IMG/VR virus record: IMGVR_UViG_3300037961_002014
Location: 1-22,858 of that record
Reading direction: 5' to 3' (one strand)
Source of the DNA: a virus
DNA length: 22,858 nt
Shown: piece by piece, positions 698-22,858 of the stretch
Position numbering within the stretch: position 1 is the first letter of the stretch
How the letters are laid out: every line of letters starts with the position of its first letter
Position numbers and translations under genes: made by a program
The notes under the pieces: generated by a model
Seen by the model: the letters and a program-made list of their open reading frames with translations, nothing else
Database searches by the model: none
What the model was told of the DNA's origin: nothing

Positions 698-711
698 TGC
701 ATTTAATTGTG

Positions 712-785
712 TACCCCCGATAGGATTCGAACCTATGACCCACAGCTTAGAAGGCTGTTGCTCTATCCAACTGAGCTACGAGGGC
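712..785 (-). tRNA. tRNA-Arg (anticodon UCU)
   Basis: Read on the minus strand it folds as a full cloverleaf. The acceptor stem pairs GCCCTCG with CGGGGGT, the D arm contains AGCTCAGTTGGATAGAGC, the anticodon stem ACAGC/GCTGT closes loop CTTCTAA (anticodon TCT), and the T arm is ATAGG-TTCGAAT-CCTAT. The discriminator is A and CCA is not encoded (the next bases are CAC). It would read AGA codons, which are visibly frequent in late genes such as the HNH gene. Confidence 0.97.
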
Positions 786-7742: not shown

Positions 7743-8003
7743 ATGTATCATCAATCAACTGAGGGTCTTATGGAGATCCTATCCGACAATGGGTCTCTTC
7801 TAGCAAATGGGTTTGAGAAAGCCTTAGTGGGTGTCACCTGTGGGGCCAACCCAGTAGCCATCTATGACGCCATGAGTTGTATAGAGATCCTTATCGACGA
7901 GGGCATGACCGAGATGGATGCCATCGAGCACTTCGAGTTCAATGTAGTGGGATCGCACATGGGAGACAAGACTCCTCTGTTCGTTGCTTTTACGGATGGA
8001 TAA
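7743..8003 (+). CDS. Hypothetical phage protein, first rightward gene
   Basis: 86 aa starting MYHQSTEGLMEILSDNGSLL, acidic, with an ordered alpha/beta look (AIYDAMSCIEILIDEGMTEM, then DAIEHFEFNVVGSHMGDKTP). The C-terminal FEFNVVGSHMGDKTPLFV reads like a conserved core. The ATG follows the AT-rich leader TTAAATTAAATACA; no TATATTTG box is evident, so its promoter is unknown. Family not recognised, although it has the appearance of a conserved phage protein. Confidence 0.7.
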   Translation: MYHQSTEGLMEILSDNGSLLANGFEKALVGVTCGANPVAIYDAMSCIEILIDEGMTEMDAIEHFEFNVVGSHMGDKTPLFVAFTDG

Positions 8004-8014
8004 GATATAGTTAG

Positions 8015-8022
8015 TATATTTA
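8015..8022 (+). promoter_or_regulatory. -7 promoter element TATATTTA for the 8027-9639 genes
   Basis: TATATTTA lies 4 nt before the GTG start of the next gene. If transcription begins about 4 nt after the box, as for Bacteroidetes promoters, the mRNA is leaderless or has a one-base leader. A TTTT 23 nt upstream is a poor -33 match. Confidence 0.5.
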
Positions 8023-8026
8023 CGCT

Positions 8027-8443
8027 GTGGGTAAACGCACGCAGCCATACAGACTTGGATTTCCTGCAAAGTATGTAGACAAATCCCAGGGCAAGTCGGA
8101 TACGAAGAGTACGACTGCCGAGGCTGTGGCTTTGCTGAAAAGAGGGCAGGAGGCGGCTAAGAAAGGAGAGAAACTCCCCGATAGCTATTTCAAAGCGAGG
8201 GTAGCTAAGAAGGGTGCCAAGGTTTCTCGCAAGGCACTAAATGCTTCAGTCAAGAAAACATTGCAGGCCAAGGCCAAGAAGTCTGGCATCTCTTACGGCA
8301 CATTGTCCAAGGTGTACCGCAGAGGTCAAGGCGCTTGGTTGTCAGGAGGTAGCCGCCGGGGTGCTTCTATGGCAGCTTGGGCTATGGGCCGAGTAAATAG
8401 TTATATTAGAGGCTCCAGAAAACACGATACTGATTTACGATGA
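8027..8443 (+). CDS. DUF5824-like small basic phage protein
   Basis: 138 aa, strongly basic. The C-terminal part VYRRGQGAWLSGGSRRGASM, AAWAMGRVNSYIRGSRKHDT matches what I know as DUF5824, a domain of unknown function in phage proteins. The same module is found in the 22123-22329 product (VYRRGLAAYMSSGNRPKVSQ, HAWAMARVKSAF). The first 90 residues are Lys/Ala-rich. GTG at 8027 is the only usable start, since no in-frame ATG occurs until near the C-terminus, and it lies 4 nt behind a TATATTTA box. Its last four bases overlap the next gene (ATGA). It is probably a virion or packaging-linked protein; that is inference. Confidence 0.75.
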   Translation: MGKRTQPYRLGFPAKYVDKSQGKSDTKSTTAEAVALLKRGQEAAKKGEKLPDSYFKARVAKKGAKVSRKALNASVKKTLQAKAKKSGISYGTLSKVYRRGQGAWLSGGSRRGASMAAWAMGRVNSYIRGSRKHDTDLR

Positions 8444-9639: not shown

Positions 9640-9641
9640 AA

Positions 9642-9667
9642 AAAGGGGCTTCGGCCCCTTTCTTTTT
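9642..9667. terminator. Strong bidirectional Rho-independent terminator with UUCG loop
   Basis: AAAGGGGC (9642-9649), loop TTCG, GCCCCTTT (9654-9661), followed by CTTTTT rightward and by TTTTATT after the stem on the other strand. It sits between convergent genes ending at 9639 (+) and 9666 (-). Confidence 0.93.
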
Positions 9668-10070
9668 ACAACTGTATCAAGACAATTGGCGGCGCCTTCT
9701 TGCCTGAGCTGTATCCATACTCACAGTGATCCTCTGTGATTTCAAAAAATTGTTTGTGGGTAGTCACCTCTCCGTCAAGATCAAGTCCTACGGCGCAGAA
9801 CTTTCCTGTGGTAGTGAAGTTTGCACCAAACTCTGATCCAACATTTACATAGTCGTAGAGGGTGTATCCATCTGACACCTTCCGAAACACAATGTATGAT
9901 CCCTTTTTTTGATCACTTGTGATGTCCTGTACAAACAGACACGGGATCTCTGAGACGGATGAGTCGGTAACGCCACGGTAAAACTCAAAGTCCTCAATGT
10001 CAATGTATTCGTCTTGACCGAGGGCGAAGCTGCTCAAAAGCAGCAGGGGGATGATAAGTAAATTTTTCAT
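9666..10070 (-). CDS. Secreted protein with N-terminal signal peptide (possible moron)
   Basis: 134 aa on the strand opposite the late genes. It begins MKNLLIIPLLLLSSFALGQD, a typical Bacteroidetes-style Sec signal peptide: short basic start, long Leu/Ile core and an A-L-G cleavage area. There is no lipobox Cys. The mature part is a soluble beta-rich domain of about 115 residues with three Cys (IPCLF, KFCAVG, DHCEYG). It ends at the bidirectional terminator and is a single-gene unit. It could be a host-altering (lysogenic conversion or superinfection-exclusion) protein; no known family is seen. Confidence 0.75.
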   Translation of the reverse strand: MKNLLIIPLLLLSSFALGQDEYIDIEDFEFYRGVTDSSVSEIPCLFVQDITSDQKKGSYIVFRKVSDGYTLYDYVNVGSEFGANFTTTGKFCAVGLDLDGEVTTHKQFFEITEDHCEYGYSSGKKAPPIVLIQL

Positions 10071-10077
10071 GGTGGTG

Positions 10078-10085
10078 TATATTTG
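10078..10085 (+). promoter_or_regulatory. -7 promoter element TATATTTG for the 10152 gene
   Basis: TATATTTG directly beside the start of the leftward secreted-protein gene, facing right. The predicted leader to the ATG at 10152 is about 60 nt and contains a CTCAT/ATGAG hairpin (10091-10108). No good -33 TTTG. Confidence 0.5.
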
Positions 10086-10151
10086 TGTTACTCATATAAC
10101 GGCATGAGATTCTGATTATTCTCCCTGCCAGATACAACAACTGTTAAAGAC

Positions 10152-10364
10152 ATGAAGTACGGCAAAAAGATGAAGCAGGGGGGGAATGTGAAAAGCGGAA
10201 ACTTTTCTGTTCTCAACAAGACCAAGTCTATCGATCCTCCTAAGGGCTTCCACTGGATGGAGGAGGGAGGCAGGTACTACCTGATGGAGGGCGACTATGC
10301 CCCGCACCCAGGCGCTGTAGCTAAGGCCAAGTTCAAGATGGCCGATCACCCTAAGAAAAAATAA
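10152..10364 (+). CDS. Small basic phage protein, paralogue of the 21663 gene
   Basis: 70 aa. The last 45 residues (SIDPPKGFHWMEEGGRYYLM, EGDYAPHPGAVAKAKFKMAD, HPKKK) differ from those of the 21663-21857 product at only 3 positions (E/K, A/V, A/K), while synonymous changes are many at DNA level. The N-terminus MKYGKKMKQGG differs from the paralogue. Aromatic and Pro-rich, basic end; probably a small structured domain with a disordered Lys tail. The family is not one I can name. Its 3' end overlaps the leftward winged-helix gene by 14 nt. Confidence 0.8.
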   Translation: MKYGKKMKQGGNVKSGNFSVLNKTKSIDPPKGFHWMEEGGRYYLMEGDYAPHPGAVAKAKFKMADHPKKK

Positions 10365-10785
10365 TCTCCTCTTCGCCCTCGAGCTTGCGGTAGAAGCGTT
10401 GGACCATGAGTCGAGCTTTCTGCGAAAGGGCATAGCGGTTTTTGTATGTTGTCCTTTCGTGCATCTGCGCCTCGTGGAAGTGCATCTCTGAGATCTTGCT
10501 TTTGTCGAACACCTTGGTGATCCACCCTTTCTTTTGCAGGGGGTACAGCACGGAGTTGGCGAACTTGGCTTTGTGGTGATACAAAGCTTCGGCGATGTGA
10601 TCTATGGTGAAGAACTCGTAGTCGTACATGAACAGCAAGACATTGATCTGATTCATGGTGAGCCCTGACCTCTCGTTGATGTCCCTCACAGCATGCTTGT
10701 AATACTTCAGGTAGTTCTTGTTGACGTACCTGTCGTTGAGGTAAGAAAACTCTCTGTTTTTTCTGCCCTTATGGTGTCTGGCCAT
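10351..10785 (-). CDS. MarR-like winged-helix transcription regulator
   Basis: 144 aa from ATG at 10785 (MARHHKGRKN). Residues 42-130 have the winged-helix layout: GLTMNQINVLLFMYDYEFFT, IDHIAEALYH, then FANSVLYPLQKKGWITKVFD and the wing-like end YALSQKARLMVQRFYRKLEG, as in MarR-type regulators. The N-terminal ten residues are His/Arg/Lys-rich. It is transcribed against the late genes and divergently from the 10817 gene. Its start is 6 nt from the TATATTTG box of that gene, so it could regulate that promoter and itself; this is inference. A weak minus-strand TAATTTTA (complement of 10804-10811) could be its own -7. Confidence 0.7.
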   Translation of the reverse strand: MARHHKGRKNREFSYLNDRYVNKNYLKYYKHAVRDINERSGLTMNQINVLLFMYDYEFFTIDHIAEALYHHKAKFANSVLYPLQKKGWITKVFDKSKISEMHFHEAQMHERTTYKNRYALSQKARLMVQRFYRKLEGEEEIIFS

Positions 10786-10790
10786 TATAT

Positions 10791-10798
10791 TATATTTG
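10791..10798 (+). promoter_or_regulatory. -7 promoter element TATATTTG for the 10817-15769 genes
   Basis: TATATTTG 18 nt before the ATG at 10817, predicting a leader of about 15 nt (a transcription start near 10802). The leftward winged-helix gene begins just upstream, so the two promoters overlap. Confidence 0.55.
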
Positions 10799-10816
10799 TG
10801 ATGTAAAATTAGGGAT

Positions 10817-11689
10817 ATGGGAACACTCTCAGGAAATACAATCAAGACAACGTATCAGGGCCTTTTGAAGACTTCCGACTCCGCCGCTTTGACCTCCAGC
10901 TTGAAGGTCATTGAAGACGGAGAGGGCAACGATTCAGCTTTGTCACTGTCCACCGCAGCCGTCAAGGTCGAGAGCCTTCAGATCAACACCCCTGTATTTT
11001 CTGGTTCCAGTGATGTCCTTGTGTGGGACAGCTCAGCTAAGAGCGTGGGCTTCAGAACCCTCCCCGCCTTTAATCCTGTCAGCGCCAGCGTCACAGGCAG
11101 TAGTAACCCAGTCCTTGCCATCCCCGATACTGGAGGATCAACCTCTACTGTGACCTTCAACAGCGGAACTAACATCCAGGTCAGCAACAGCAGCGGCACG
11201 ATCACCTTTGACAACAGCACGCAGACCGTCAACAACATCACTACTGGCGTGACGCTTACGGCTGCTGACTCTGGCAAGACACACTTCATCGATGCCAACA
11301 CCCTTTCTGGTGGCACGATCGTTCTGCCTACAGCGGCAGCGGGCTTGTATTTCAAGTTTGTGATTGTCGATGCCAGCTCTACAGCTTTCAAGATCACCAC
11401 AAACAATGCTGCTGGCAGTGGCACAGTACAGAGATTCATCGGTAAGGTGGTGGTCAACTCCACCACCGACGACCAGGTGGCTGTGCAGAAGGTCACCAAC
11501 ACTGGCAATACGTTTGACAACGACACCTTGAGCATCGACGGTGATGCCGCCACCTCCGGTGGCAATGAGGGCGATGTCATCCATTTGCACTGCGCCACCA
11601 TTTCATCCGTCGCCACATGGGTGGTTGACGCAAGACTTACAACTACAAACGCAAACCCATCAAGCATTGCTGTGATTGGGGCCTCCTAA
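10817..11689 (+). CDS. Fibre-like structural protein
   Basis: 290 aa, Ser/Thr/Asn/Gly/Val-rich and beta-rich, with no Lys-rich or catalytic segment. The opening NTIKTTYQGLLKTSDSAALT, then IEDGEGNDSALSLST, is a pattern seen at the N-terminus of fibre-type structural proteins in many marine phages. The centre repeats short strands (GSTSTVTFNSGTNIQVSNSS). It is first gene of a unit that leads to the chaperonin and terminase genes. Receptor-binding or head-fibre use cannot be told apart from sequence. Confidence 0.75.
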   Translation: MGTLSGNTIKTTYQGLLKTSDSAALTSSLKVIEDGEGNDSALSLSTAAVKVESLQINTPVFSGSSDVLVWDSSAKSVGFRTLPAFNPVSASVTGSSNPVLAIPDTGGSTSTVTFNSGTNIQVSNSSGTITFDNSTQTVNNITTGVTLTAADSGKTHFIDANTLSGGTIVLPTAAAGLYFKFVIVDASSTAFKITTNNAAGSGTVQRFIGKVVVNSTTDDQVAVQKVTNTGNTFDNDTLSIDGDAATSGGNEGDVIHLHCATISSVATWVVDARLTTTNANPSSIAVIGAS

Positions 11690-11967
11690 TGGATCCGAAT
11701 GACGAAAGACTAAGGTATGTACACCACTTGATCAGCGAATTGCATGGTGCTATCAAGGACGAGTTCCTACCTAATGATTTCGCTTTCATCTTTTGTTTTG
11801 TGATTGAACGTGAGGACCACATCATTGATGAGGAGGTCACGGCAGGGTACTCATGGTCGGTCAAAGACGATGAGGCATTTCAGGAATTAGTTAGTATACT
11901 TGACAGCGCATATCAAGCCAGCCGCAAAAACAGAGGCGACTGGTTAGATGATATCTGCCTAAATTAA
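11689..11967 (+). CDS. Hypothetical acidic phage protein
   Basis: 92 aa, sharing one base with the previous stop (TAATG). Acidic, alpha/beta (LNPND-type start, FAFIFCFVIEREDHIIDEEV). A TATACTTG resembling the -7 box occurs inside it (about 11895) but is probably chance. No recognised family. Confidence 0.65.
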   Translation: MDPNDERLRYVHHLISELHGAIKDEFLPNDFAFIFCFVIEREDHIIDEEVTAGYSWSVKDDEAFQELVSILDSAYQASRKNRGDWLDDICLN

Positions 11968-11972
11968 ATCAA

Positions 11973-12209
11973 GTGGCCAACATCATTAGAAAGATCGTCG
12001 TGGGGCCAAACCCTAAAGACGCTATGGCATACTTCATTGGTATGCGTGCGGGTGATTCACGAATCAGTATGATCGTAGAGGACGAGAGGTCTATGTACAA
12101 ATACAACGTGCGTAGATACGAGGTGTATGTAGAGGATGAGGATTCAACCATGCTTTGGAAGACGATCGAGAATCAGCCCGTCCTGATAGAATACGATTGC
12201 AAATTTTAA
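11973..12209 (+). CDS. Hypothetical small phage protein
   Basis: 78 aa with GTG start (VANIIRKIVVGPNPKDAMAY), chosen because it follows the previous stop by 5 nt and no other in-frame start precedes the conserved-looking core. It ends with beta strands (YNVRRYEVYVEDEDSTMLWK). Family not recognised. Confidence 0.65.
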   Translation: MANIIRKIVVGPNPKDAMAYFIGMRAGDSRISMIVEDERSMYKYNVRRYEVYVEDEDSTMLWKTIENQPVLIEYDCKF

Positions 12210-12213
12210 TTTT

Positions 12214-12819
12214 ATGAAAGCCCTACATCACTTCATTGTAAGAGTTCCCAAACGATTTGAAGACACCATCGAGGTCGGTGGTCAGGAGTTGTATCTAGAC
12301 ACCAAGTGGAACGAGTTTGAAAACAGGATTGCTTACGGAGAAATCGTCTCTGTGCCTTTGAGGTACCACGGCGACGCCAAGAAGGGAGACACTTTGATCT
12401 TCCACCATCATGTCACAACAAACAGTGCTCTGAAAATCTCAGACGATCTAGGTGACGATTTGTACATGTGCATGTACAACGAGGAACATGGTCAGCTCAG
12501 CCAAGCCATTGCATACCGAAGCAAGGATACAGAGGATCTTCACATGCTTGCTGACTGGCTTTTTGTCTTGCCTGTAGACCAGACTAAAGAAGAGGAAAAG
12601 ACTGAGGCAGGGGTCATTATCCCCGACCTCAATCCTGAGGTCAGAGATATCGCTGAGGTGTATACGCCACACCCAGAGCTGGAGGAGCAAGATGTAAATC
12701 CTGGTGACATTGTAGGATTTGAAAAGAGTGCTGACTACAAGATTAAGTTAGACAATGACGACATTGTCTATCGCATGCGTGTACAAGACATCAGCTATGT
12801 CGAAGTTCACGACGATTGA
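12214..12819 (+). CDS. Two-domain GroES-like (Cpn10) co-chaperonin
   Basis: 201 aa. The second half, residues about 115-199, reads as Cpn10: LFVLPVDQTKEEEKTEAGVIIPD with the mobile-loop-like GVII, then DIAEVY, VNPGDIVGF and YKIKLDNDDIVYRM, aligning with GroES GGIVLP, GEVVAVG, VGDKVLF and EEYLVLR. The first half looks like a divergent copy: FIVRVPKRFEDTIEVGGQEL, YGEIVSVP, KKGDTLIFHHHV. This tandem arrangement recalls chloroplast Cpn20, whereas bacterial GroES has one domain of about 97 aa. The protein would cap host GroEL and help fold phage proteins such as the capsid, like T4 gp31. It lies just before the packaging genes. The second-domain call is fairly strong, the first weaker. Confidence 0.75.
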   Translation: MKALHHFIVRVPKRFEDTIEVGGQELYLDTKWNEFENRIAYGEIVSVPLRYHGDAKKGDTLIFHHHVTTNSALKISDDLGDDLYMCMYNEEHGQLSQAIAYRSKDTEDLHMLADWLFVLPVDQTKEEEKTEAGVIIPDLNPEVRDIAEVYTPHPELEEQDVNPGDIVGFEKSADYKIKLDNDDIVYRMRVQDISYVEVHDD

Positions 12820-13081
12820 GGCTGCCAAGCGATTGATGAAGTCTATGGAAACGGCAATCAATAATATGATTGATGAAATCAAAAAGCCCGTGGACCCAGA
12901 CATCAATGGTAGCGCAAGGAAGGCTGAGCTGCAAGCGATCAAGCAGACAGCCACGGACTGCAAAGAGCTTCTGGTAGAGCGCCAGCGGCTTGAACAAATG
13001 ATCAAAGACCTTACGAACAATGGAGCGATCGCAGAAGACAAAGACTACTCAGGAGGTTTCGCTGAGAGATACTCAAAGTGA
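12797..13081 (+). CDS. Helical protein next to packaging genes (possible small terminase)
   Basis: 94 aa from ATG at 12797 (MSKFTTIEAAKRLMKSMETA), overlapping the co-chaperonin gene by 23 nt. All helical with a coiled-coil pattern (ATDCKELLVERQRLEQMIKD). No HTH is visible. Position upstream of the HNH and large terminase genes is where a small terminase or packaging accessory is often found, but sequence alone does not show that. An upstream frame start at 12755 is rejected because it would overlap more. Confidence 0.6.
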   Translation: MSKFTTIEAAKRLMKSMETAINNMIDEIKKPVDPDINGSARKAELQAIKQTATDCKELLVERQRLEQMIKDLTNNGAIAEDKDYSGGFAERYSK

Positions 13082-13163
13082 TTGGAAAGAGATTGTATGG
13101 GAAAGAAATAAAGTAGAGCACAAGTTTTGGGAGGAGTCTTGGAATAAGAAGTCAGGGGACTGA
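13020..13163 (+). CDS. Very small Trp/Lys-rich protein
   Basis: 47 aa, MERSQKTKTTQEVSLRDTQS followed by a Trp-rich helix (DWKEIVWERNKVEHKFWEES). It lies in a different frame from the preceding gene, overlapping its 3' end by 62 nt, and its TGA shares a base with the HNH ATG (TGATG). The junction and the consistent Trp/Glu/Lys helix support it; the length makes it uncertain. Confidence 0.45.
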   Translation: MERSQKTKTTQEVSLRDTQSDWKEIVWERNKVEHKFWEESWNKKSGD

Positions 13164-13525
13164 TGCCTTTCAAGGATCCCGAAAAAAGAAAACAATATCA
13201 AAGAGAATATCATAGAAGGTACTATCAAGACCATAGTACCAAGTACAAGGAGAAGGCTAAGAAGTGGAACAAGTCACAAAGGAGATGGGCAAGAGATTAC
13301 GTGCAGAGGGTCAAGAGGATGAACAAGTGCATCGATTGTGGTCAATCCAATCCACTGGTACTTGAGTTTGATCATGTAAAAGAGAAGTCATACAACATCT
13401 CCGATATGGTGAATGGCTCGTACTCCATCGCTTCGATCAAAGAAGAGATAAGAAAATGTGAGATACGGTGTGCTAACTGTCACAGGATCAAGACAATAGA
13501 AAGAAGAAACAATTCAATAAAATGA
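13163..13525 (+). CDS. HNH endonuclease
   Basis: 120 aa. The first 50 residues are basic and aromatic. The HNH fold is marked by zinc-type pairs C56-x2-C59 and C103-x2-C106, with D70-H71 in LEFDHV as the catalytic start and H107 just after the second pair (CANCHRIKT). Such small HNH enzymes next to terminases take part in DNA packaging in HK97-like phages or act as homing nucleases. Here the location one short gene upstream of TerL favours a packaging role, as inference. It is joined by TGATG to the gene before and by ATGA to the gene after. Confidence 0.9.
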   Translation: MPFKDPEKRKQYQREYHRRYYQDHSTKYKEKAKKWNKSQRRWARDYVQRVKRMNKCIDCGQSNPLVLEFDHVKEKSYNISDMVNGSYSIASIKEEIRKCEIRCANCHRIKTIERRNNSIK

Positions 13526-13650
13526 AAAAGCTGCCTGTCAAAGTAGAAAAGAAACGCATTCGCAGAAAGGGCGTGCATTCTAAGAACAACCACTCTAAGA
13601 ACAAGAAGTCCAAAAACTACGTGAAGGCTTATGCTGGTCAGGGTAGATAA
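13522..13650 (+). CDS. Very small basic protein upstream of terminase
   Basis: 42 aa, MKKLPVKVEKKRIRRKGVHS followed by KNNHSKNKKSKNYVKAYAGQ and GR. Over half of the residues are Lys, Arg, His or Asn. The ATG overlaps the HNH stop (ATGA) and the end overlaps the TerL start by 20 nt. The SKNNHSKNKKSKNY stretch looks conserved in form, like short proteins found before terminase genes in related phages, from memory only. It may bind DNA. Confidence 0.6.
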   Translation: MKKLPVKVEKKRIRRKGVHSKNNHSKNKKSKNYVKAYAGQGR

Positions 13651-15769
13651 GTATGATGAGCAGGCTGTCAGCATTTGTCCCAACGGCACGCAGGGTGAGA
13701 TTGTTGAACTCGGTGGGTTGGTCATTGTACTTCCCGCTGTCCCGCCCCCAGAGGAAGTTGAAGGACATGACCGTCCAAACGACATGCAGTTGTGGGAGAG
13801 GCGGGCTATGCCAGAGGAGCTGTCTAGGATTCGTTCTATGGATGAGTGGGGGGAGATGCCAAGGGAGTTCAGAGAAAAGTTTCGTCCGTATATCGAAGAG
13901 GAGTTTCGCCGTAGGCGTGAGGGCTTTTGGTTTTTCAACGATGGCGTCCCTACATATATTACGGGTCGGCACTACATGATGTTGCAATGGACGAAGATGG
14001 ACATAGGCTATCCTTCGTACCTTTCTTTCCAACGTGAAATCTTTCTCCACATGGCTGCGTGCGAAGCGGACCCACGCTGCATGGGTCAGCTCTACACTAA
14101 GTGTCGCCGTTCTGGATACACTAATATCTGCTCTTCAGTCTTGGTCGATGAGGCTACGCAGATTAAGGATAAGCTTCTCGGCATCCAGTCGAAAACAGGT
14201 AAAGACGCCCAAGAAAACATCTTCATGAAAAAGGTGGTGCAGATGTTCCGGCACTACCCTTTCTTTTTCAAGCCCATCCAAGACGGAACGACCAACCCTC
14301 GTGTAGAGCTGGCCTTCCGTGAGCCATCGAAGAGGATCACCAAAAACAACAAGACGGCCTTCAAGGGTGATGCGTTGAACACGGTCATCAACTGGAAGAA
14401 CACCACGAACAACGCTTACGATGGTGAGAAGCTGCACATCTTGTATCTGGACGAGGCAGGCAAGTGGGAGAAGCCCACAGACATCAGGGAGGCGTGGCGT
14501 ATCCAGAGGACGTGTTTGATTGTAGGTAGAAAAATCATTGGGACCGCCCTGGTCGGTTCGACCGTCAACCCCTTGGACAAGGGCGGCAAGCAATACAAAA
14601 AGCTGTGGGAAGACAGTGACCCTCAAGCCCGCAACGCCAACGGAAGGACGGTGAGTGGATTGTACCGCATCTTTGTGCCTGCCGACGAAGCTCTAGAAGG
14701 TTTTTTTGACAAGCACGGCAACGCTGTCAAAGACGATCCAGCCACAGCAGTTGACGGACTGGATGGTGAGCCCATTGCTTTTGGTTCCAGGACGTTTTTG
14801 AAAAACGAAAGGTCGGCTATGAAGTCTGATACGAGAGAGCTCAATGAGTTCATCAGGCAGTTCCCATTTTCTCCTGAGGAGGCTTTCCGTGACTCCATCG
14901 AAGGCAGCCTCTTCGACATCTCAAAGATCTACGACCAGATAGAGCACAATGACATGCTGTATCCCAACCCTATCGTGGAGGGTAATTTTGTCTGGAAAGA
15001 CGGCAGGCGTGATACAGAGGTTGTGTTTCGCCCGACTAAAAATGGAAGATGGAGGGTGGCGTGGATGCCTCCTTCGGGCATGAGAAACAAGAGGGAGGAG
15101 TACCGGGGTAAGATGATAGCCCCACACAGCTCTCTAGGCTGTGGGGGCGTAGACAGCTACGACCTCGATGCCACTGTCGATGGTAGGGGGTCTAAGGGTG
15201 CCTGCCACCTGTACAATAAGTTCAGCATGCAGCACCCTTCGAACATCTTTGTTGCTGAATATATCAGCAGGCCACCAATGGCCAAGATCTTCTACGAGGA
15301 TATTTTGATGGCTTCGTTTTTCTATGGCTACCCGCTGTTGATTGAGAACAACAAGTATGGGATCGTGAGGTATTTTGAGGAACGTGGGTATGACGGCTAT
15401 GTGCTGGATAGGCCCGATCACCTGAAGTCTACGTCGAGCTCGGTGAACGTCAAGACAAAGGGGATTCCGTCTAACTCTCAAGACGTGTTGCAGGCTCACG
15501 CCCAAGCCATCGAAGATTACATCCATCAGCATGTGGGATATAATGAGGAGGGCGATATGGGGAAGATGTACTTCAATAGGACGCTTGAAGATTGGATACA
15601 GTTTAAGATTACCAATCGAACCAAGTACGACTTGTCAATCAGTTCAGGTCTTGCTTTGCTTGCAGCTCAAAAAGAAAAGCCCAAAGCAAAGAGGGCAGAC
15701 TTTAGTGAAAAAAAATTCTTCCGTAGATACAAGTACAACGCTGGCGGACCCTCTACCCTTCGCAAGTGA
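13631..15769 (+). CDS. terL: Terminase large subunit (packaging ATPase/nuclease)
   Basis: 712 aa, longer than many TerL. ATPase motifs: KCRRSGYT (157-164), a deviant Walker A of the lambda gpA type (compare KSARVGYS) rather than the usual GxxGKT, and Walker B LHILYLDEAGKWE with D274-E275; GSTVNP near 309 fits the coupling motif. Nuclease motifs: GVDSYDLDATVD with D508 and D511, LIENN with E572, and a later Asp in KYDLSIS. It uses ATP to translocate DNA into the prohead and cuts concatemers. It is preceded by the HNH and small basic genes and followed by the portal gene. Confidence 0.93.
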   Translation: MLVRVDKYDEQAVSICPNGTQGEIVELGGLVIVLPAVPPPEEVEGHDRPNDMQLWERRAMPEELSRIRSMDEWGEMPREFREKFRPYIEEEFRRRREGFWFFNDGVPTYITGRHYMMLQWTKMDIGYPSYLSFQREIFLHMAACEADPRCMGQLYTKCRRSGYTNICSSVLVDEATQIKDKLLGIQSKTGKDAQENIFMKKVVQMFRHYPFFFKPIQDGTTNPRVELAFREPSKRITKNNKTAFKGDALNTVINWKNTTNNAYDGEKLHILYLDEAGKWEKPTDIREAWRIQRTCLIVGRKIIGTALVGSTVNPLDKGGKQYKKLWEDSDPQARNANGRTVSGLYRIFVPADEALEGFFDKHGNAVKDDPATAVDGLDGEPIAFGSRTFLKNERSAMKSDTRELNEFIRQFPFSPEEAFRDSIEGSLFDISKIYDQIEHNDMLYPNPIVEGNFVWKDGRRDTEVVFRPTKNGRWRVAWMPPSGMRNKREEYRGKMIAPHSSLGCGGVDSYDLDATVDGRGSKGACHLYNKFSMQHPSNIFVAEYISRPPMAKIFYEDILMASFFYGYPLLIENNKYGIVRYFEERGYDGYVLDRPDHLKSTSSSVNVKTKGIPSNSQDVLQAHAQAIEDYIHQHVGYNEEGDMGKMYFNRTLEDWIQFKITNRTKYDLSISSGLALLAAQKEKPKAKRADFSEKKFFRRYKYNAGGPSTLRK

Positions 15770-15776
15770 AAATTGT

Positions 15777-15790
15777 TATATTTGCAAATA
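15777..15790 (+). promoter_or_regulatory. -7 promoter element TATATTTG overlapping a 12-bp palindrome
   Basis: TATATTTG (15777-15784) lies 22 nt before the portal ATG. Its right part forms the perfect palindrome TATTTGCAAATA (15779-15790), so an operator could cover the -7 region and transcription start. It lies just past the TerL stop. Confidence 0.55.
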
Positions 15791-15806
15791 GCACAATAAT
15801 GTTGTA

Positions 15807-18260
15807 ATGAACTATAGCGACAACAAAGGCGTATACGGCAACTTCCCCGATCCATTTGCGGAGCCAAAAGTCAAGGAAAGTAAGTCGTATGGGCAAGCCT
15901 TTGCAAACGCTATCATGGGGCAGTGGGGTACCTACCAGGATTCGTCATCGCTTTTGAACAGACGTTTCTACGAGTTTGAAAAGAATCGGGACTACGCCAA
16001 CGGTACACAGGACACCTCTATTTACAAGCAGATCCTCAACAGCCTCGACCCCAACAATGGTGATGGCACACTGTTGAATATCGATTGGTCACCCGTCCCT
16101 ATCATCCCCAAGTTCGTCAAGGTCGTCGTCAACAGGATTCTTTCTCGCAAGCCGTATCCCTCTGTAGAGGCCATCGACCCTGTATCTCGTCAGGAGAAGG
16201 AGACCAAGAGGCAGGAGATCGAAATCACGATTGAAAACAAGCAAGCGTTTCAAGAGGCGAGGGCTTTGGGTCTAAACACCAAGATCGATCCAGACACAGT
16301 CCCGGATACGACTGAGGAGGCTGAAATCTTTTTGGATCAGAACATCAAGACCAACGCCGAGATCGCTGCGCAGATGGCCACGTCATTGACGCTGGATTGG
16401 AACAGCTTCGACCAAAACACATACCGCCGATGTGTGCAGGATCTGGTAGAGGTGGGTATGGGTGTTACCAAAAGAAAGAACGACCCGAACTACGGCATCA
16501 CGACGGAGTACGTCGATCCTGCTATGTTCTTGCACAGCTACACCGAAGACCCCCACATGAATGATATCGTGTATGCGGGCCACATCAAGCGCATGTCGAT
16601 CATGGACTTGAAGCGCATGGCGGGTGATGAGTTTACAGAAAAGGAATACGAGGAGTTGGCCAGGAAGGTCATGCACAAGAGCTACAACGACAAGGGCAAG
16701 TTCATGACGGGTGGTGGCTACGACCGTGCAGGTCGCAAGCAGACCTATGGCTATGACGATTACTTGATTGAGGTCTTGGACTTTGAGTTCAAGAGCGTCG
16801 ATACCGTGTACTATGAAAGCAAGGAGTCACGCTTCGGCAATGTCGGATTCTACTACAAGGGCATGGCTTTCAAGCCTGTCTCCGAATCGGTGTACGACCG
16901 CAAGCCATACAAGATGGATGTGGAGACCCTGTATGGAGGTTGTTACATCATTGACAGCAAAAAGATTTTCAACTACGGACGGATGAAGAACATTCCCAAG
17001 AATGTTCACGACATCTCCCGTGCCGAGCTTTCGTACAGTATCGCCTGCACAAACATCCGCCGCATGATTCCGAAATCATTGGTGGGTGGCATCACGGGCT
17101 TTGCCGATCAGTTGCAGCTTACGCACTGCAAGATCCAGCAGGCTGTGGCCAAGGCCAAGCCTGACGGATTGATCATCGACATCGAAGGACTGGAGAATGT
17201 GCAGCTTGGCCGTGGTGGTGACTTGAGCCCTCTGGAGTTGCAAGACATCTACGAGCAGACGGGTATCATGTACTACCGTTCGAAGAATCCTGAGGGCGGC
17301 TTCCAGAACCCACCGATCCGATCTATCGAAAACCAGATCAGAAACATCAATTCGTTCATCACGCTGTACAATCATTACCTGAGAATGATTCGTGATGCCA
17401 CGGGTGTCAATGAGGTGATGGATGCATCGACCCCCAAGGGCGATGCTTTGGTAGGTGTTCAGCAACAAGCTTTGGCTGCGGGCAACAACGCTTTGTACGA
17501 CATCACGAATGCGTCGCTTGTATTGTACAGACGTGTTTGTCAGGATATTGTCAGGTGCTTGCAGATCATCCCAGAGAAGTCTGTCTTGTACCGCACCTAC
17601 GAAAAGGCTATTGGCAAGTACAACATGGAGGTGTTGAGTTCATTCAAGGACTTGCCCATGTATAACTTTGGTATCCAGGTCATCAAGTCTATGTCTGACG
17701 AGGATCGCATCTTCCTGGAGCAAAACATCCAATCGTCTTTGGCTCAGAAAGAAATCGACTTGGAGGACGCTATGGCCGTGAGGCAGCTCAAGGACATCGA
17801 CCAAGCGGAGAGGCTGTTGGTGGTGCGCCGCAAGAGACGTATTGCTCAGCAGCAGCAGCTTGCTCAGCAGAACATGCAAGCTCAGGCTCAAGCTAACGCC
17901 CAAGCTTCGCAGGCCGCTTCACAAGCGAAGATGCAGGAGATGCAGATGGAGGCTCAAATCGATGCGCAGAAGATGCAGCTCAAGGCTCAGGTCGATGTGC
18001 AGGTGGCGGCGGCGATGCACCAGATGAGGAAAGAGATTGAGCAGATCAAAGCCCAAGCTGTCCTCGGCGCCCGTGCCAGCGATCAGGAGTTTAGAGAAAA
18101 GATTGAGACCATGAAGGAGTCGGGCAAAGACGAAAGGATTGCACGTCAGGCCGCTGAGCAGTCCAAGCTTATCTCTCAAAGAAAAGGTGAGATCCCTCGC
18201 TTACCAGAAGTCCAAGAAAAGGACGAGGGCTTGGAGAAATTTTTAGAAGACCTGATTTGA
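15807..18260 (+). CDS. Portal protein
   Basis: 817 aa, directly downstream of terL and on the same strand, as is usual. The N-terminal region, residues about 30-120, includes an aromatic, Asn/Asp-rich opening (RRFYEFEKNRDYANGTQDTS) and WSPVPIIPKFVKVVVNRILS, typical of portal wings. The centre is mixed alpha/beta. The C-terminal 130 residues are Gln/Ala-rich (QQQLAQQNMQAQAQANAQAS), then charged helix, as expected of a barrel or coiled coil. Length fits P22-like portals better than the ~450-aa HK97 type. It forms the dodecameric ring through which DNA is packaged. The function is strong; the subfamily is uncertain. Confidence 0.88.
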   Translation: MNYSDNKGVYGNFPDPFAEPKVKESKSYGQAFANAIMGQWGTYQDSSSLLNRRFYEFEKNRDYANGTQDTSIYKQILNSLDPNNGDGTLLNIDWSPVPIIPKFVKVVVNRILSRKPYPSVEAIDPVSRQEKETKRQEIEITIENKQAFQEARALGLNTKIDPDTVPDTTEEAEIFLDQNIKTNAEIAAQMATSLTLDWNSFDQNTYRRCVQDLVEVGMGVTKRKNDPNYGITTEYVDPAMFLHSYTEDPHMNDIVYAGHIKRMSIMDLKRMAGDEFTEKEYEELARKVMHKSYNDKGKFMTGGGYDRAGRKQTYGYDDYLIEVLDFEFKSVDTVYYESKESRFGNVGFYYKGMAFKPVSESVYDRKPYKMDVETLYGGCYIIDSKKIFNYGRMKNIPKNVHDISRAELSYSIACTNIRRMIPKSLVGGITGFADQLQLTHCKIQQAVAKAKPDGLIIDIEGLENVQLGRGGDLSPLELQDIYEQTGIMYYRSKNPEGGFQNPPIRSIENQIRNINSFITLYNHYLRMIRDATGVNEVMDASTPKGDALVGVQQQALAAGNNALYDITNASLVLYRRVCQDIVRCLQIIPEKSVLYRTYEKAIGKYNMEVLSSFKDLPMYNFGIQVIKSMSDEDRIFLEQNIQSSLAQKEIDLEDAMAVRQLKDIDQAERLLVVRRKRRIAQQQQLAQQNMQAQAQANAQASQAASQAKMQEMQMEAQIDAQKMQLKAQVDVQVAAAMHQMRKEIEQIKAQAVLGARASDQEFREKIETMKESGKDERIARQAAEQSKLISQRKGEIPRLPEVQEKDEGLEKFLEDLI

Positions 18261-18261
18261 T

Positions 18262-18618
18262 ATGAGTAAGGTAAGCCTCGATGTAGCTCAACGGTTGGAC
18301 ATCACGTGTCGTAAGGGTGATACATTTTCTTTGATCGTCAATGTATCAGATTCGACTGGTTCTCCCGTCAACCTCAGTACATACTCTTTCAAGATGCAGC
18401 TAAGGGAGACTGATGTAAGCACCTTGCCAACCATTGATGACAGCGGCATAACAATAACAGGGACATCAGGAGGGGTAATCACGGTCACCATTTTAGCCAG
18501 TGTGATGGCAAGCATCAATAGCGGGTTGTATGTGTACGATTTGCAAACTATCAAGGCTGGTGTCACCCAGACATGGCTTACAGGTGTCATCACAGTCAAT
18601 GAGGATGTTACGGTATGA
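18262..18618 (+). CDS. BppU-like virion protein (baseplate or tail-associated)
   Basis: 118 aa, starting directly after the portal stop. Residues 10-50 (LDITCRKGDTFSLIVNVSDS, then SPVNLSTYSFKMQLRE) follow the pattern of BppU-type N-terminal domains, with KGDTFSL and LxxYxFKMQ. The rest is beta-rich (ITVTILASVMASINSGLYVY, ends ITVNEDVTV). It overlaps the next gene by ATGA, suggesting coupled production of a fibre complex. Confidence 0.75.
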   Translation: MSKVSLDVAQRLDITCRKGDTFSLIVNVSDSTGSPVNLSTYSFKMQLRETDVSTLPTIDDSGITITGTSGGVITVTILASVMASINSGLYVYDLQTIKAGVTQTWLTGVITVNEDVTV

Positions 18619-20171
18619 GCGACTTGACACTTTCTGTATCGAGCAGCACCAATGTGTTGACGAGTGCTGTTGGGGCTGATGAAATCAACCTGACTCTCAG
18701 TGAGTCTACCAATGTAGTCACGAAGGTCGTCAGCACTGAAAACACCCTGTCTATAGATCTTACTGGCTCTGTTACTCCATCTACAATCGGTGCGCTTACC
18801 GACGTCAGCACCACGGGCATTACAGACGGTCAAATTTTAGGTTTTAGCAGCAGCACAGGTCAGTTTAGCGCAGTAGACAATTCCGTCGGGGCGTTGAAAT
18901 TAGTTGACGATGACCCTGATTTTAAAGTTCGGCTCACCAATACACCTGGCAGCACAAGTGATGTAGTTTTCAAAGCAGGCACAGGAATATCTCTGGGAGT
19001 TGTTGGTAGTGATCTTACTATCACAAATACGGCAAGTACAGGGCGCAGCGACGCATCCATTCAGTCTGTTGTGGGCGCCATGTTCACTTCAAATACGGAT
19101 ACTCGAATTACCTCTACATACGATAGCGGTAGTCAAAAGATCAACCTTGTAGTTAATGATATGACGGCTGATACTCAGCTAACTACGGAACAGGTTCAAG
19201 ATATCGTAGGCGCTATGTTCAGTGGAAACACTGAGACTAGAATCTCTGCGACTTATGAGGATTCGGACGGCACGATTGATCTCGTGGTAGACGATATGAC
19301 AGCCGACACACAGCTTTCAACGGAACAGGTGCAGGATATCGTGGGGGCTATGTTTACAGGCAACACTGAGACCAGGATCTCGGCGACATACGAAGACGGT
19401 GATGGAACGATTGATCTTGTTGTTGACGCTATCCCGGTTGACCTCACGTCTGATGGCGCTGGTACAATTCATGCAAACAATGTGCCTACGCTCAATCAGA
19501 GCACTACGGGCAACGCAGCTACAGCTACGGCCTTGGCTACAGCTAGAGCAATCAATGGCGTTGACTTTGACGGCACGGCTGCAATCACTGTCACTGCGGC
19601 AGGCTCTACTTTGTCTGATACTGTACCTGTAAGTAAAGGTGGTACAGGGGCTACAACTTTGACGGGAAACGCCCTACTTACTGGGAATGGTACTGCGGCA
19701 ATAACTGCTGAAAGCAATCTAGCATTTGATGGCAACACCCTGACAATTACAGGTCAGAGACGAATAGTTTCGCCAACAGGAAGTGGACAATTTTATGGAG
19801 ACACGGTGGTGTTTGGAAGTGGACCCAATGGACTTGACGGAGATATAGAGCAGGGTAAGCTGTACTATTTAGACTCGTCGCAGCAGTGGGAAGAGACTAA
19901 TGCAAATGCAGCAGCCTCAGCTACAGGCATGATCGCTTTGGCCATCGTTGATGATAACGCAAGATTTCTTGTAAAGGGATTTGCGAGACATTCATCCTTT
20001 GCAGGATTTACAACTGGTGATGTATTGTATGTATCAGGCACTGCGGCGGGGATTACAAAAACTGCACCCACTGGAAGCACAGACATTGTTAGAATTGTTG
20101 GATACTGCACGGACGGAGGTAACAGAGAGATTTACTTTGATCCATCAAAAGACTGGGTTGAGTTGTCATGA
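18615..20171 (+). CDS. Tail-fibre-like protein with three 45-aa repeats
   Basis: 518 aa, Thr/Ser/Asp/Gly-rich, beta-rich. After an N-terminal variable region, three repeats of 45 residues occupy about 149-272 (VQDIVGAMF[S/T]GNTETRI.. type). A GGTGATTLTGN segment near residue 340 is a common fibre motif. The C-terminal 150 residues (GDTVVFGSGPNGLDGDIEQG, then GDVLYVSGTAAGIT, RIVGYC, EIYFDP) resemble a module found at the end of many marine phage structural proteins. Probably a trimeric fibre. It overlaps both neighbours by ATGA. Confidence 0.8.
   Translation: MSDLTLSVSSSTNVLTSAVGADEINLTLSESTNVVTKVVSTENTLSIDLTGSVTPSTIGALTDVSTTGITDGQILGFSSSTGQFSAVDNSVGALKLVDDDPDFKVRLTNTPGSTSDVVFKAGTGISLGVVGSDLTITNTASTGRSDASIQSVVGAMFTSNTDTRITSTYDSGSQKINLVVNDMTADTQLTTEQVQDIVGAMFSGNTETRISATYEDSDGTIDLVVDDMTADTQLSTEQVQDIVGAMFTGNTETRISATYEDGDGTIDLVVDAIPVDLTSDGAGTIHANNVPTLNQSTTGNAATATALATARAINGVDFDGTAAITVTAAGSTLSDTVPVSKGGTGATTLTGNALLTGNGTAAITAESNLAFDGNTLTITGQRRIVSPTGSGQFYGDTVVFGSGPNGLDGDIEQGKLYYLDSSQQWEETNANAAASATGMIALAIVDDNARFLVKGFARHSSFAGFTTGDVLYVSGTAAGITKTAPTGSTDIVRIVGYCTDGGNREIYFDPSKDWVELS
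19059..19430 (+). repeat. Three tandem 135-bp units in the fibre gene
   Basis: Units start at 19059, 19194 and 19329 (135 nt apart, 45 codons, in frame); the third is partial. Units 2 and 3 are nearly identical at the protein level; unit 1 is diverged. They encode the repeat starting [I/V]Q[S/D][V/I]VGAMF. Confidence 0.85.
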
Positions 20172-21121
20172 GCATAAGCAAGCTTTCTGGAGTTACCTAC
20201 AGCTCTATCAATAAGATTTCTGGTGTAGCAAAGTCTGGTGTAGCAAAGGTGAAAGGGATAGTCCCCTCTTACTTTTTAGATAACCACGCTGGATCAGTCT
20301 GCGCTTACGCATTGAGGCAACTCTCCTCTACTGCCACCTATGCAATTACTGTAGAGAACTCATCAGGAGCAACAGCAGACATTGGATTTACTGCGGCTGG
20401 AGGGTTGGACACTTCCGCTCTTGCTACGCACTGTGGAAGCAACTATGGTCGAGTCTCAAAATGGTGGGACCAGAGTGGAAATTCAAACCACATGGAGCAG
20501 TCAACTGCGACGGCAAGGCCTTACATCGTTGATGCATCTGGGAACTTGATTACAACAACAGACAGTTCCATACCAGCTCTTGACTTTTATTTCAGCTCTG
20601 CGTCGCGGTGGCTGGAAGATACTTTTGTAAGTAATAACAGTGACAGGTTAATGGTGTCTCTTATGGCTGAGTTTAGATCAGTTACTGCTGGTCAGTATAT
20701 CTTTAGTCAGTGGACTTCCAGTCAGTCTACACAGGTTTTTCAGATAAATGTTCTTGGTGCTGCGAGTGATTTAAGACTTGCCGCAAGATTCGGCACAAGC
20801 TCCAAACATCTGGGCAGAGTTCAAACCAATGCTCAGGTAGCTGTCAATACAGAGTATCTTGTGGTTGGGTCTTTGGACCACGCTTCAGGAGATCTGGACG
20901 TCAATGGTGATACTGCTGATACAGATACAGGCTTTCCTGGCAGCTCTGGAGCTGGCCTCATCAACAATGGGAACATTCTTTTAGCCATAGGTCGAAGACC
21001 TGACAATGGAACCGCACAGTACACTGGATTTCTTTCAGAAGTTATAATGTGGTCTGATACATCACTCCCCACACAGAATGATGTTATGACGGATATGAAC
21101 ACACACTATTCTGTTTTCTAA
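20168..21121 (+). CDS. Lectin-like (ConA/LamG-fold) virion protein, possible receptor binder
   Basis: 317 aa. A short N-terminal repeat (SKLSGVTYSSINKISGVAKS) is followed by a domain whose SKWWDQSGNSNHMEQ (near 97-111) is the typical WxDQSGN signature of ConA-like/LamG or AbfB-type domains in phage tail and surface proteins. The later beta-rich part (YIFSQWTSSQSTQVFQINVL, SEVIMWSDTSLPTQNDVMTD) matches the usual jelly roll. It likely binds host surface glycans. It overlaps the fibre gene by ATGA and the next gene by TAATG. Confidence 0.85.
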   Translation: MSISKLSGVTYSSINKISGVAKSGVAKVKGIVPSYFLDNHAGSVCAYALRQLSSTATYAITVENSSGATADIGFTAAGGLDTSALATHCGSNYGRVSKWWDQSGNSNHMEQSTATARPYIVDASGNLITTTDSSIPALDFYFSSASRWLEDTFVSNNSDRLMVSLMAEFRSVTAGQYIFSQWTSSQSTQVFQINVLGAASDLRLAARFGTSSKHLGRVQTNAQVAVNTEYLVVGSLDHASGDLDVNGDTADTDTGFPGSSGAGLINNGNILLAIGRRPDNGTAQYTGFLSEVIMWSDTSLPTQNDVMTDMNTHYSVF

Positions 21122-21345
21122 TGGCAAAGACTGCAACAGACACGGGCAATACAATCACTGAGGGATATGTGATTAAAATGGTCGGTATTGAAGAGTATTT
21201 TGAAACTCAGTCAGGCGCGTTGGCGTGGGCCAAGGCAGGTAACATTCCTTCTGTAGATTTCTACACTGATGACAGCATATCAGATGCAGACAAGCTGGAT
21301 GATTTGATGTACGGAAACCTCATGGAGTACTCTTCTGACATTTAA
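21121..21345 (+). CDS. Hypothetical small phage protein
   Basis: 74 aa, sharing one base with the previous stop (TAATG). Acidic C-terminal half (DDSISDADKLDDLMYGNLME). It ends one base before the next TATATTTG box, closing the unit from the portal. It may act with the lectin-like protein, for example as a small chaperone; no family is recognised. Confidence 0.7.
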   Translation: MAKTATDTGNTITEGYVIKMVGIEEYFETQSGALAWAKAGNIPSVDFYTDDSISDADKLDDLMYGNLMEYSSDI

Positions 21346-21353
21346 TATATTTG
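21346..21353 (+). promoter_or_regulatory. -7 promoter element TATATTTG for the small basic gene cluster
   Basis: TATATTTG begins one base after the preceding stop and ends 4 nt before the GTG at 21358. As with 8015, the mRNA would be leaderless if that GTG is used. No -33 match is visible. Confidence 0.55.
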
Positions 21354-21357
21354 TATT

Positions 21358-21663
21358 GTGAGCAAAGAGGGTATGAGAAACAGGATCAAGCGCATGCTGA
21401 AAAAGCATGGGCTAGCTGGTGTCAACAAGCCAAAACGTACACCTAGCCATCCCAAAAAGTCACACATCGTTCTCGCTAAAGAAGGAGACAGGGTAAAGCT
21501 TATCCGCTACGGCCAACAAGGTGCCAAGACAGCAGGAAAGCCTAAGAAGGGGGAGAGCGATCGCATGAAAAAGAAAAGAGCTAGCTTTAAGGCTAGACAC
21601 AGAAAAAACATAGCCAAGGGCAAGATGAGCGCAGCTTTCTGGGCCAATAAAACCAAGTGGTAA
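21358..21663 (+). CDS. Basic phage protein, DUF6321-like
   Basis: 101 aa, very Lys/Arg-rich. HGLAGVNKPKRTPSHPKKSH, VLAKEGDRVKLIRYGQQGAK and SFKARHRKNIAKGKMSAAFW follow what I know as DUF6321, a phage family of unknown function. The start is a GTG 4 nt behind the TATATTTG box; an ATG at codon 6 (21373) is an alternative that would give a 15-nt leader. It probably binds DNA or belongs to the virion. It shares the stop/start base with the next gene (TAATG). Confidence 0.75.
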   Translation: MSKEGMRNRIKRMLKKHGLAGVNKPKRTPSHPKKSHIVLAKEGDRVKLIRYGQQGAKTAGKPKKGESDRMKKKRASFKARHRKNIAKGKMSAAFWANKTKW

Positions 21664-21857
21664 TGAAGACCATCAAGGCAAAAAAGGGGGCTAAGTTCTC
21701 CATCACCAACAAGACAATGTCGATAGACCCTCCGAAAGGCTTTCACTGGATGGAAGAGGGTGGCAGGTACTATTTGATGAAAGGCGACTACGTCCCTCAT
21801 CCTGGCGCTGTGAAGAAAGCGAAGTTTAAAATGGCTGACCATCCAAAGAAAAAGTAA
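21663..21857 (+). CDS. Small basic phage protein, paralogue of the 10152 gene
   Basis: 64 aa. The start ATG overlaps the previous stop (TAATG). SIDPPKGFHWMEEGGRYYLM and the rest of the 45-residue C-terminal part differ from the 10152 product at 3 positions. The N-terminus (MKTIKAKKGAKFSITNKTM) is different. It is located 11 kb from its relative but beside other small basic proteins. Confidence 0.85.
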   Translation: MKTIKAKKGAKFSITNKTMSIDPPKGFHWMEEGGRYYLMKGDYVPHPGAVKKAKFKMADHPKKK

Positions 21858-22126
21858 TGGCCAAGTCTCCAGCACAACAAGCCGCTATTGCTATCGCCAT
21901 GAAGAAAGCAGGCAAGAGGCCTAAGTCTGCGAAGAAAGGGATGAAGTTCAACCCTAAATACACTCGTGGCAGTGCTGACGTAGCTAAGAGGAAAAGACTC
22001 ATGCAGCAAATTGCTGACATTTACAAAAAGCATAGAGGCACAAAAGCTAAAAGAAAAAAGAAAGGATTCCCACCTGCCGTTGCAGCTCGATTAAAGAAGC
22101 TTATGGCGCAAAGAGATAAGATATGA
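21857..22126 (+). CDS. Small basic phage protein (SPAQQAAIAIAMKKAGK type)
   Basis: 89 aa. MAKSPAQQAAIAIAMKKAGK is a recurring opening in short proteins of phages, followed by a strongly basic body (GFPPAVAARLKKLMAQRDKI at the end). About one third is Lys/Arg. It overlaps both neighbours (TAATG before, ATGA after), so these genes are coupled. DNA-contacting or virion use is inferred from charge only. Confidence 0.7.
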   Translation: MAKSPAQQAAIAIAMKKAGKRPKSAKKGMKFNPKYTRGSADVAKRKRLMQQIADIYKKHRGTKAKRKKKGFPPAVAARLKKLMAQRDKI

Positions 22127-22329
22127 AAGTGATGAAGAAAGGCGGCATGGCTGGTTTGGATGCTGCACAAAAACAAGTCTATCGCAGAGGCCTTGCTGCT
22201 TATATGAGCTCTGGCAACAGGCCAAAGGTTTCTCAGCACGCATGGGCTATGGCAAGAGTGAAGTCGGCCTTTGGGAAACGAGAAGCAGCAAAGATTAGAG
22301 CGGGGAAAGGGAAGAAGAAGAAAAAATAA
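22123..22329 (+). CDS. Small DUF5824-like basic protein
   Basis: 68 aa. VYRRGLAAYMSSGNRPKVSQ plus HAWAMARVKSAFGKREAAKI matches the C-terminal module of the 8027-8443 protein; the surroundings (MKVMKKGGMAGLDAAQKQ and the terminal KGKKKKK) differ. It is essentially the module with short basic ends. It overlaps the previous gene by ATGA. Function unknown; the repeated use of the module in one genome suggests a shared binding partner. Confidence 0.75.
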   Translation: MKVMKKGGMAGLDAAQKQVYRRGLAAYMSSGNRPKVSQHAWAMARVKSAFGKREAAKIRAGKGKKKKK

Positions 22330-22337
22330 ATAATACC

Positions 22338-22345
22338 TATATTTG
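22338..22345 (+). promoter_or_regulatory. -7 promoter element TATATTTG for the 22366 gene
   Basis: TATATTTG, 20 nt before the ATG at 22366 and just after the small basic gene cluster. The predicted leader is about 17 nt. No clear -33. Confidence 0.55.
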
Positions 22346-22365
22346 CGGAATAACAACTAATACAA

Positions 22366-22758
22366 ATGGCTACAACAACTGCAACTCTTACATTGTCCAG
22401 CTCAGATCTCACGGGAGATGCTTTGGCTTTGTCTACAACTGCCACCTTGACCAAGGCTGGCACGTTGACTGGCTTGGACCAGACCACTGGTGTTGGTCGC
22501 AAGACTTATACTTCTACTAGTATCGCAACCTTGGTTGACAAGGCTGATTATGCTGATGACAAAGCTCACAAAGTTTACATCAGAAACACGAGCACTGTCG
22601 CTACAGAGAACATTGCTATTACTGTTGAAGCTCAGCTTCTTGGTAGACTGTATGCTGGAGACTGGGCGTTGCTCCCATTCAATGGAGATCAAGACATTAA
22701 GGTGACTCCTAGTGTTGCGACAGCATTGACTGTTGAGTACCTGGTTATTTTTGAATAA
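22366..22758 (+). CDS. Probable virion structural protein
   Basis: 130 aa, Thr/Ala/Leu-rich with short beta strands (MATTTATLTLSSSDLTGDAL, then KVYIRNTSTVATENIAITVE and LPFNGDQDIKVTPS). Likely a capsid decoration or similar structural protein. The start MAxxxATLxLSS is shared with the next gene, so the two are related. It follows its own TATATTTG promoter. Confidence 0.7.
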   Translation: MATTTATLTLSSSDLTGDALALSTTATLTKAGTLTGLDQTTGVGRKTYTSTSIATLVDKADYADDKAHKVYIRNTSTVATENIAITVEAQLLGRLYAGDWALLPFNGDQDIKVTPSVATALTVEYLVIFE

Positions 22759-22760
22759 TA

Positions 22761-22858
22761 ATGGCTAGCGTAAGAGCAACATTGAGCCTTTCGAGCGCTG
22801 GTGTTCTCAGCAGCCCTCTGAATATTTCTGTCAACTCAAACCTTGTCGTTGACTCTGG
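22761..22858 (+). CDS. Probable virion structural protein, N-terminal part, related to 22366 gene
   Basis: Only the first 32 codons are in the window: MASVRATLSLSSAGVLSSPL, then NISVNSNLVVDS. The start is similar to the previous gene (MAxxxATLxLSS), suggesting a duplicated pair. It begins 2 nt after that gene's stop. The right part is cut off by the window edge. Confidence 0.6.
   Translation, partial: MASVRATLSLSSAGVLSSPLNISVNSNLVVDS

Follow-up and report, generated by a model that had tools for sequence, protein, structure and literature searches.

Two copies of the small HWM protein in one viral contig lie in segments resembling different phage lineages

Introduction

Small proteins with the same core motif as the pair studied here are encoded by the Pelagibacter phages HTVC103P, HTVC104P and HTVC106P and by the Roseobacter phage CRP-901. 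They are distant from our pair (45-57% over half the query), their basic N-tail is shorter, and they were found at one place per record. A phrog_7595-like gene is located near the gene for this protein in HTVC106P and CRP-901 (E 3.5e-21 and 2.5e-10, respectively), and none was found near that of HTVC103P. A second group of relatives is known from the backbone genes. The cultured podoviruses of Flavobacterium and Cellulophaga (the elemo group and its relatives) have a related terminase and a capsid-like protein related to that of G001, a contig described below, with less than 60% identity; no match to the small protein was obtained in them by tblastn at E up to 10. As for transcription, a passage of PMC9723704 gives TAnnTTTG as the flavobacterial -7 box.

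The DNA analysed here, called the window throughout, is a stretch of 22,858 nucleotides (positions 1 to 22,858 of IMG/VR record IMGVR_UViG_3300037961_002014). It encodes two full copies, A and B, of such a small protein. The original prediction, made from the letters alone, regarded the pair as an old duplication maintained by strong purifying selection, owing to a shared structural partner or a dosage need. In this study, the pair was compared with its relatives in other viral contigs, and the segments that hold the two copies were compared with other phage lineages.

Results

The coordinates of the two copies and of their surroundings are listed in Table 1. A tRNA-Arg gene (TCT, 711-785, minus strand), similar to phage tRNAs, was also seen in the window.

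Table 1. Features of the window (positions are those of the whole stretch)
Feature	Position	Strand	Remarks
DUF5824 protein a, 138 aa, left-lineage type	8027..8443	+	PF19141 53.3 bits, cut-off 25; 98% in G001
Leader and first codons of copy A	10063..10165	+	TATATTTG at 10078-10085; 98-99% identical in L003 and L145
HWM copy A, 70 aa	10152..10364	+	locus-A N-terminus (MKYGKKM..GG) and conserved HWM core
WH164, 164 aa, convergent with copy A	10351..10845	-	marks locus A; no PHROG match
P518, tail-fibre-like, 518 aa, holds the lineage switch	18615..20171	+	PHROG tail fibre matches, identity profiles
Two direct repeats, 135 nt, 74% alike	19139..19408	+	at the switch
P317, virion structural-like, G008 type (99% protein identity)	20168..21121	+	phrog_10356, E 2.2e-7
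SFKARH protein, 101 aa, first gene of the copy-B run	21358..21663	+	phrog_7595, E 5.7e-41
HWM copy B, 64 aa	21663..21857	+	within small basic cluster
BAS89, basic, 89 aa	21857..22126	+	absent from G001
DUF5824 protein b, 68 aa, G008 type	22123..22329	+	PF19141 35 bits, cut-off 25; 100% in G008
C130, 130 aa, G008 type	22366..22758	+	own TATATTTG site upstream (22338)
TATATTTG sites	10078-10085, 10791, 15777, 21346-21353, 22338	+	each shortly before a gene

Neither copy matched a family model in PHROGs, Pfam or NCBIfam. The family to which they belong, for which the label HWM was coined in this analysis, is common in marine phage contigs and uncharacterised. The two queries gave 91 and 149 confirmed stretches in viral contigs, and the best 80 of the 91 and the best 80 of the 149 were kept. 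In the annotated phage collection, 5 records matched HWM at E up to 10, and 4 records matched at E up to 1 when the CRP-901 member was the query. The median pI of 95 distinct members was 10.0, and the phage members start with a Lys/Gly-rich stretch. An alignment of 81 rows, comprising most of these 95 and copy B (near-copies, fragments and L130-L132 were left out), had 14 invariant columns, which in copy A numbering are P30, G32, H34, W35, M36, G40, R41, L44, M45, G47, H52, A59, F61 and H66. In the AlphaFold2 model (mean pLDDT 84.9), an all-beta core is predicted with confidence (95-97 for residues 21-60), and the Lys/Gly-rich N-tail is floppy. Against the PDB, this model had no Foldseek match at E 0.001 and no VIA-align match at Z 2. 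The best matches in BFVD were D6PEZ4 (E 0.064) and A0A516MIE3 (E 0.10), two short unnamed viral proteins with 39% identity that are perhaps further HWM members. A gamma-crystallin likeness in a PDB profile search covered 13 residues at E 2.7 or worse and was taken as chance.

The RcnB domain (PF11776) resembles HWM over approximately 18 residues around PPxGYHWM..GxYxLM and gave a weak match in 38 of the 81 members (best E 0.0067, below the cut-off); the HWM core is longer. None of the window proteins matched PF11776 at E up to 5, and its curated cut-off was exceeded in none of 4 records. Since the similarity is confined to these 18 or so residues and lies below the cut-off, RcnB was set aside as a function for HWM. 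In the genome collection, one bacterial contig, an alphaproteobacterial MAG (L158), matched HWM. Its frame at L158:7587-8426 has 280 residues, a hydrophobic start and two HWM repeats, and scored 25.0 bits with the RcnB model against a cut-off of 25.9.

Both open reading frames of the pair are present, and their last 45 residues differ at 3 positions, as had been reported. In the DNA of these 45 codons and the stop, 30 of 138 bases differ, and the counts at codon positions 1, 2 and 3 are 3, 2 and 25, which confirms the many silent differences. The dS was saturated by NG86, and YN00 gave a dN of 0.06 and a dS of 0.98; the DNA is not as similar as the protein. This codon-position pattern, together with the 14 invariant columns in 81 members, supports the purifying selection that had been proposed. 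BLASTP aligned 58 positions, of which 49 were identical (stop counted), with an E of 1e-39, and chance similarity is thus excluded; the protein identity of the pair is 78%. The N-termini, which had been described as unrelated, are so for the first dozen or so residues; beyond these the description fails, and the homology spans approximately 58 residues rather than 45. The starts of copy A (10152-10184, MKYGKKMKQGG) and of a 399-aa protein (8440-8475, MKYGDKKMGDGG) look alike by eye.

Saturated silent sites alone do not prove a duplication, since two orthologues brought together give the same pattern. Third-position difference counts were used as the measure of silent divergence, gene by gene, between lineages. 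The divergence was 58% between A and B (64 aligned residues), and 52% for TerL and 63% for the portal between the window and G008, a contig that has copy B only. In silent divergence, the pair is comparable to orthologues from the two lineages. Moreover, the copies are not each other's closest relatives. Copy A is 94% identical to the single copy of L003, located at the same locus, and the copy B protein is 100% identical in L083, while its DNA differs from G008 at one base (21731). A duplication within the genome, kept by selection for dosage or for a shared partner, would account for the near-identical cores and the strong silent excess, but it does not agree with the finding that A and B are each more similar to a single copy in another phage than to one another, nor with the copy numbers below, and we consider it very improbable.

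The copy number was examined in 100 whole records, a subset of the contigs at hand consisting of virus records that may be fragments. Two full copies occurred in none of the 100; 96 have the family, 94 with one copy and 2 with one copy and a weak adjacent relative. Among the first 50 records all matched, 48 of them once, and G027 and G028 had a second, weak adjacent match, the only second matches in the 100. Among the second 50, 46 matched once each, and the 4 that did not were fragments of 12-13 kb. Since most of the records were chosen for holding HWM, these counts test copy number and not prevalence. The expectation that such pairs co-occur in other phages is contradicted by them, and so is a dosage need; an old duplication finds no support in the same counts or in the make-up of the window, the halves of which correspond to two single-copy phage lineages. 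A weak HWM relative (PLGYYWWLENERYHLV, E 3e-4) was observed directly 3' of the normal copy at L056:7682-7945 and L057:1336-1599.

When the HWM places were sorted by their neighbours, 23 fell to A and 110 to B, 8 were probably B and 4 were unclear; some contigs enter these counts repeatedly. Locus A lies before the terminase, mostly beside the convergent gene WH164, which is winged-helix-like by our own reading only. At locus B, which follows the portal and tail genes, HWM usually stands between a phrog_7595 gene upstream and, in contigs that have them, BAS89, DUF5824 or C130 genes downstream. For the comparison of the two sites, re-fetched or contained loci were removed and 116 were kept. Among the 18 loci showing both sites, 7 had HWM only at A and 10 only at B, and the window alone had it at both. 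The B site of G001, the full record of L003, holds only a phrog_7595-like gene and a C130-like gene, and HWM is absent from the B site in the 4 left-lineage contigs reaching it (L140, L141, L143 and L145). In G001 (L135:14387-17261), five successive similar proteins (MPF..II...ELQLPAKDC), apparently a tandem family, were observed between C130 and the scaffold-like and capsid-like genes.

The two copies of the window lie in segments with different closest lineages, and the breakpoint is between them. Positions 7742-18778 are 90.4% identical in DNA to G001, which has copy A only, and between 7.7 and 18.6 kb the compared proteins share 83-100% identity with their G001 counterparts. Positions 19060-22858 are 96.1% identical to G008 (96-100% in the right part), and over 20350-22858 the two agree at 2508 of 2509 bases. 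The switch was sharp when single genes were compared. P317, P74, SFKARH, HWM-B, BAS89, DUF5824b and C130 are 99-100% identical to G008; in G001, P74 and BAS89 have no counterpart, those of P317, SFKARH, DUF5824b and C130 are 33-44% identical, and the sole counterpart of HWM-B is the A copy (75%). DUF5824 (PF19141) likewise occurs twice in the window, near copy A and near copy B; no paper on it was found in a literature search. SFKARH also has a partial match to phrog_220 (minor head protein/DNA pilot, E 6.5e-7).

The window is G001-like up to approximately 18.8 kb and G008-like from approximately 19.5 kb, and the switch at approximately 19.0-19.5 kb falls inside P518. The junction was compared without gaps and by BLAST, since MAFFT gave no reliable alignment near the fibre repeat. 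Up to 19000 the window shares 95-99% identity with L140, and over 19001-19200 it shares 96-98% with L149. Over 19301-19500, none of the nine contigs compared exceeds 86% identity to the window, and L149 and G008 each have 77-82%; the window is therefore without the long stretch that those two share there. Beyond 19500 the identity to G008 is 88-100%, dropping locally at 19.8-20.0 and 20.2-20.4 kb. In L140 and L149, the left backbone is likewise joined to the tail-gene type of the window, so that exchange in the tail region recurs; neither of them has HWM at B. An exact 30-base junction probe matched no other contig in the searched set, outside which records near the window possibly lie.

Such a junction might also arise if A-type and B-type phages of one sample had been mis-joined by the assembler in the conserved, repetitive tail region, which would imply that no phage carries both copies. 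The combination of A and B was seen once only, and in the tail region G008 agrees exactly with L140 for up to 107 bases and with L149 for up to 115, which is enough to mislead an assembler. However, the P518 frame stays open across the switch, and 19301-19500 carries neither the sequence of L149 nor that of G008. We regard this assembly artefact as unlikely, though far from negligible.

At locus A, the leader of copy A lies between a divergent 134-aa gene and copy A itself. When L145 was compared with the window here, the leader and first codons were 99% identical (103 bases), the core 62% (190 bases) and the downstream part 92-95%. In the HWM tree (93 rows reduced to 92 by merging identical ones and leaving out L158; only 59 columns; 41 of 89 inner branches open), copy A of the window groups with L003 and L045, and the sister of this group is the gene of L005, which is located at B (98/87). 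Copies from A and B are intermixed rather than split into two clades, with A copies placed among B copies; 6 changes of the A label are required, and well-supported branches force no fewer than 3 of them. These patterns suggest that HWM cores move between loci and lineages. An ancestor with both loci, from which the lineages lost one or the other and the window kept both, would explain why each of the loci is found in many contigs and why several diverged groups have the A site, but the tree speaks against it and the sharp lineage switch is left without explanation; we consider it improbable.

The sequence TATATTTG occurs 5 times in the window, all on the + strand, with 0.35 expected, and the genes that follow start at 10152, 10817, 15807 (portal), 21358 and 22366. 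It fits the flavobacterial box in the cited passage (PMC9723704) and is promoter-like. One site is located 74 nt before copy A and another before the four-gene run SFKARH/HWM-B/BAS89/DUF5824b, in keeping with the separate transcription units originally suggested. The motif is not general before HWM loci; it was found within 500 bases upstream of 4 of 13 A loci and 38 of 91 B loci, and in 12% of random stretches. Since TATATTTG fits this box as the passage gives it and the relatives of the terminase belong to phages of Flavobacterium and Cellulophaga, the host of the window phage is likely a member of the Bacteroidota.

Discussion

The window is made up of two lineages and carries HWM at two loci, and no second full copy is present in the 100 searched records. 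The two copies were probably brought together by recombination inside the tail-fibre gene, which joined the alternative single-copy HWM loci of two lineages. The ancestor of the window phage would have had its copy at locus A. A homologous exchange in the repeat-bearing fibre gene, at approximately 19.0-19.5 kb, would then have replaced the right-hand segment with that of another lineage, the incoming part comprising the remainder of the fibre gene, the tail gene after it and the basic cluster, in which copy B and the second DUF5824 gene reside. Such a content would leave the window doubly supplied for exactly HWM and DUF5824, the second DUF5824 gene being due to the same event. The divergence of 19301-19500 and the further patches are not predicted by a simple splice of two contigs, and we infer that the join happened in nature. 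Against this recombination, the present combination was found in no second contig among those searched, and one mismatch in 2509 bases to G008 could also result from a mis-join.

A more tentative, rather doubtful extension is that phages need HWM as a single copy, which can dock at either of two interchangeable sites. At site A, its promoter, leader and first codons would stay constant and its core would be swapped as a cassette, as in the comparison of L145 with the window, which would itself be a two-copy intermediate. If so, HWM would be moved or swapped independently of the phage backbone, possibly to suit a newly acquired head or tail module.

As for function, copy B is encoded behind the terminase, portal and tail genes, i.e. 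among structural genes. This position in a late structural region, together with the basic charge and the compact predicted fold, suggests that HWM is a late protein associated with assembly, which may contact DNA or the capsid. Copy A is placed elsewhere, before the terminase and outside the structural run, which partly speaks against an assembly role. A structural partner shared by A and B, as first suggested, is possible. HWM is a widespread uncharacterised family of small beta-proteins, seemingly present once per genome at one of two sites, and is a promising candidate for an assembly factor that marine phages need.

More generally, recombination between two single-copy parents can mimic an ancient conserved duplicate, and saturated silent sites should not be taken as a sign of old duplication. 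A literature search on flavophage tail-fibre mosaicism, phage pseudoparalogues and phage mosaicism with chimeric contigs found nothing. The mosaicism of phage genomes, with exchange of tail fibres, is a general concept. The window resembles it in that its closest relative changes sharply inside a tail-fibre-like gene and the neighbouring genes move along; it differs in that the moved segment doubles two small families which the recipient keeps elsewhere.
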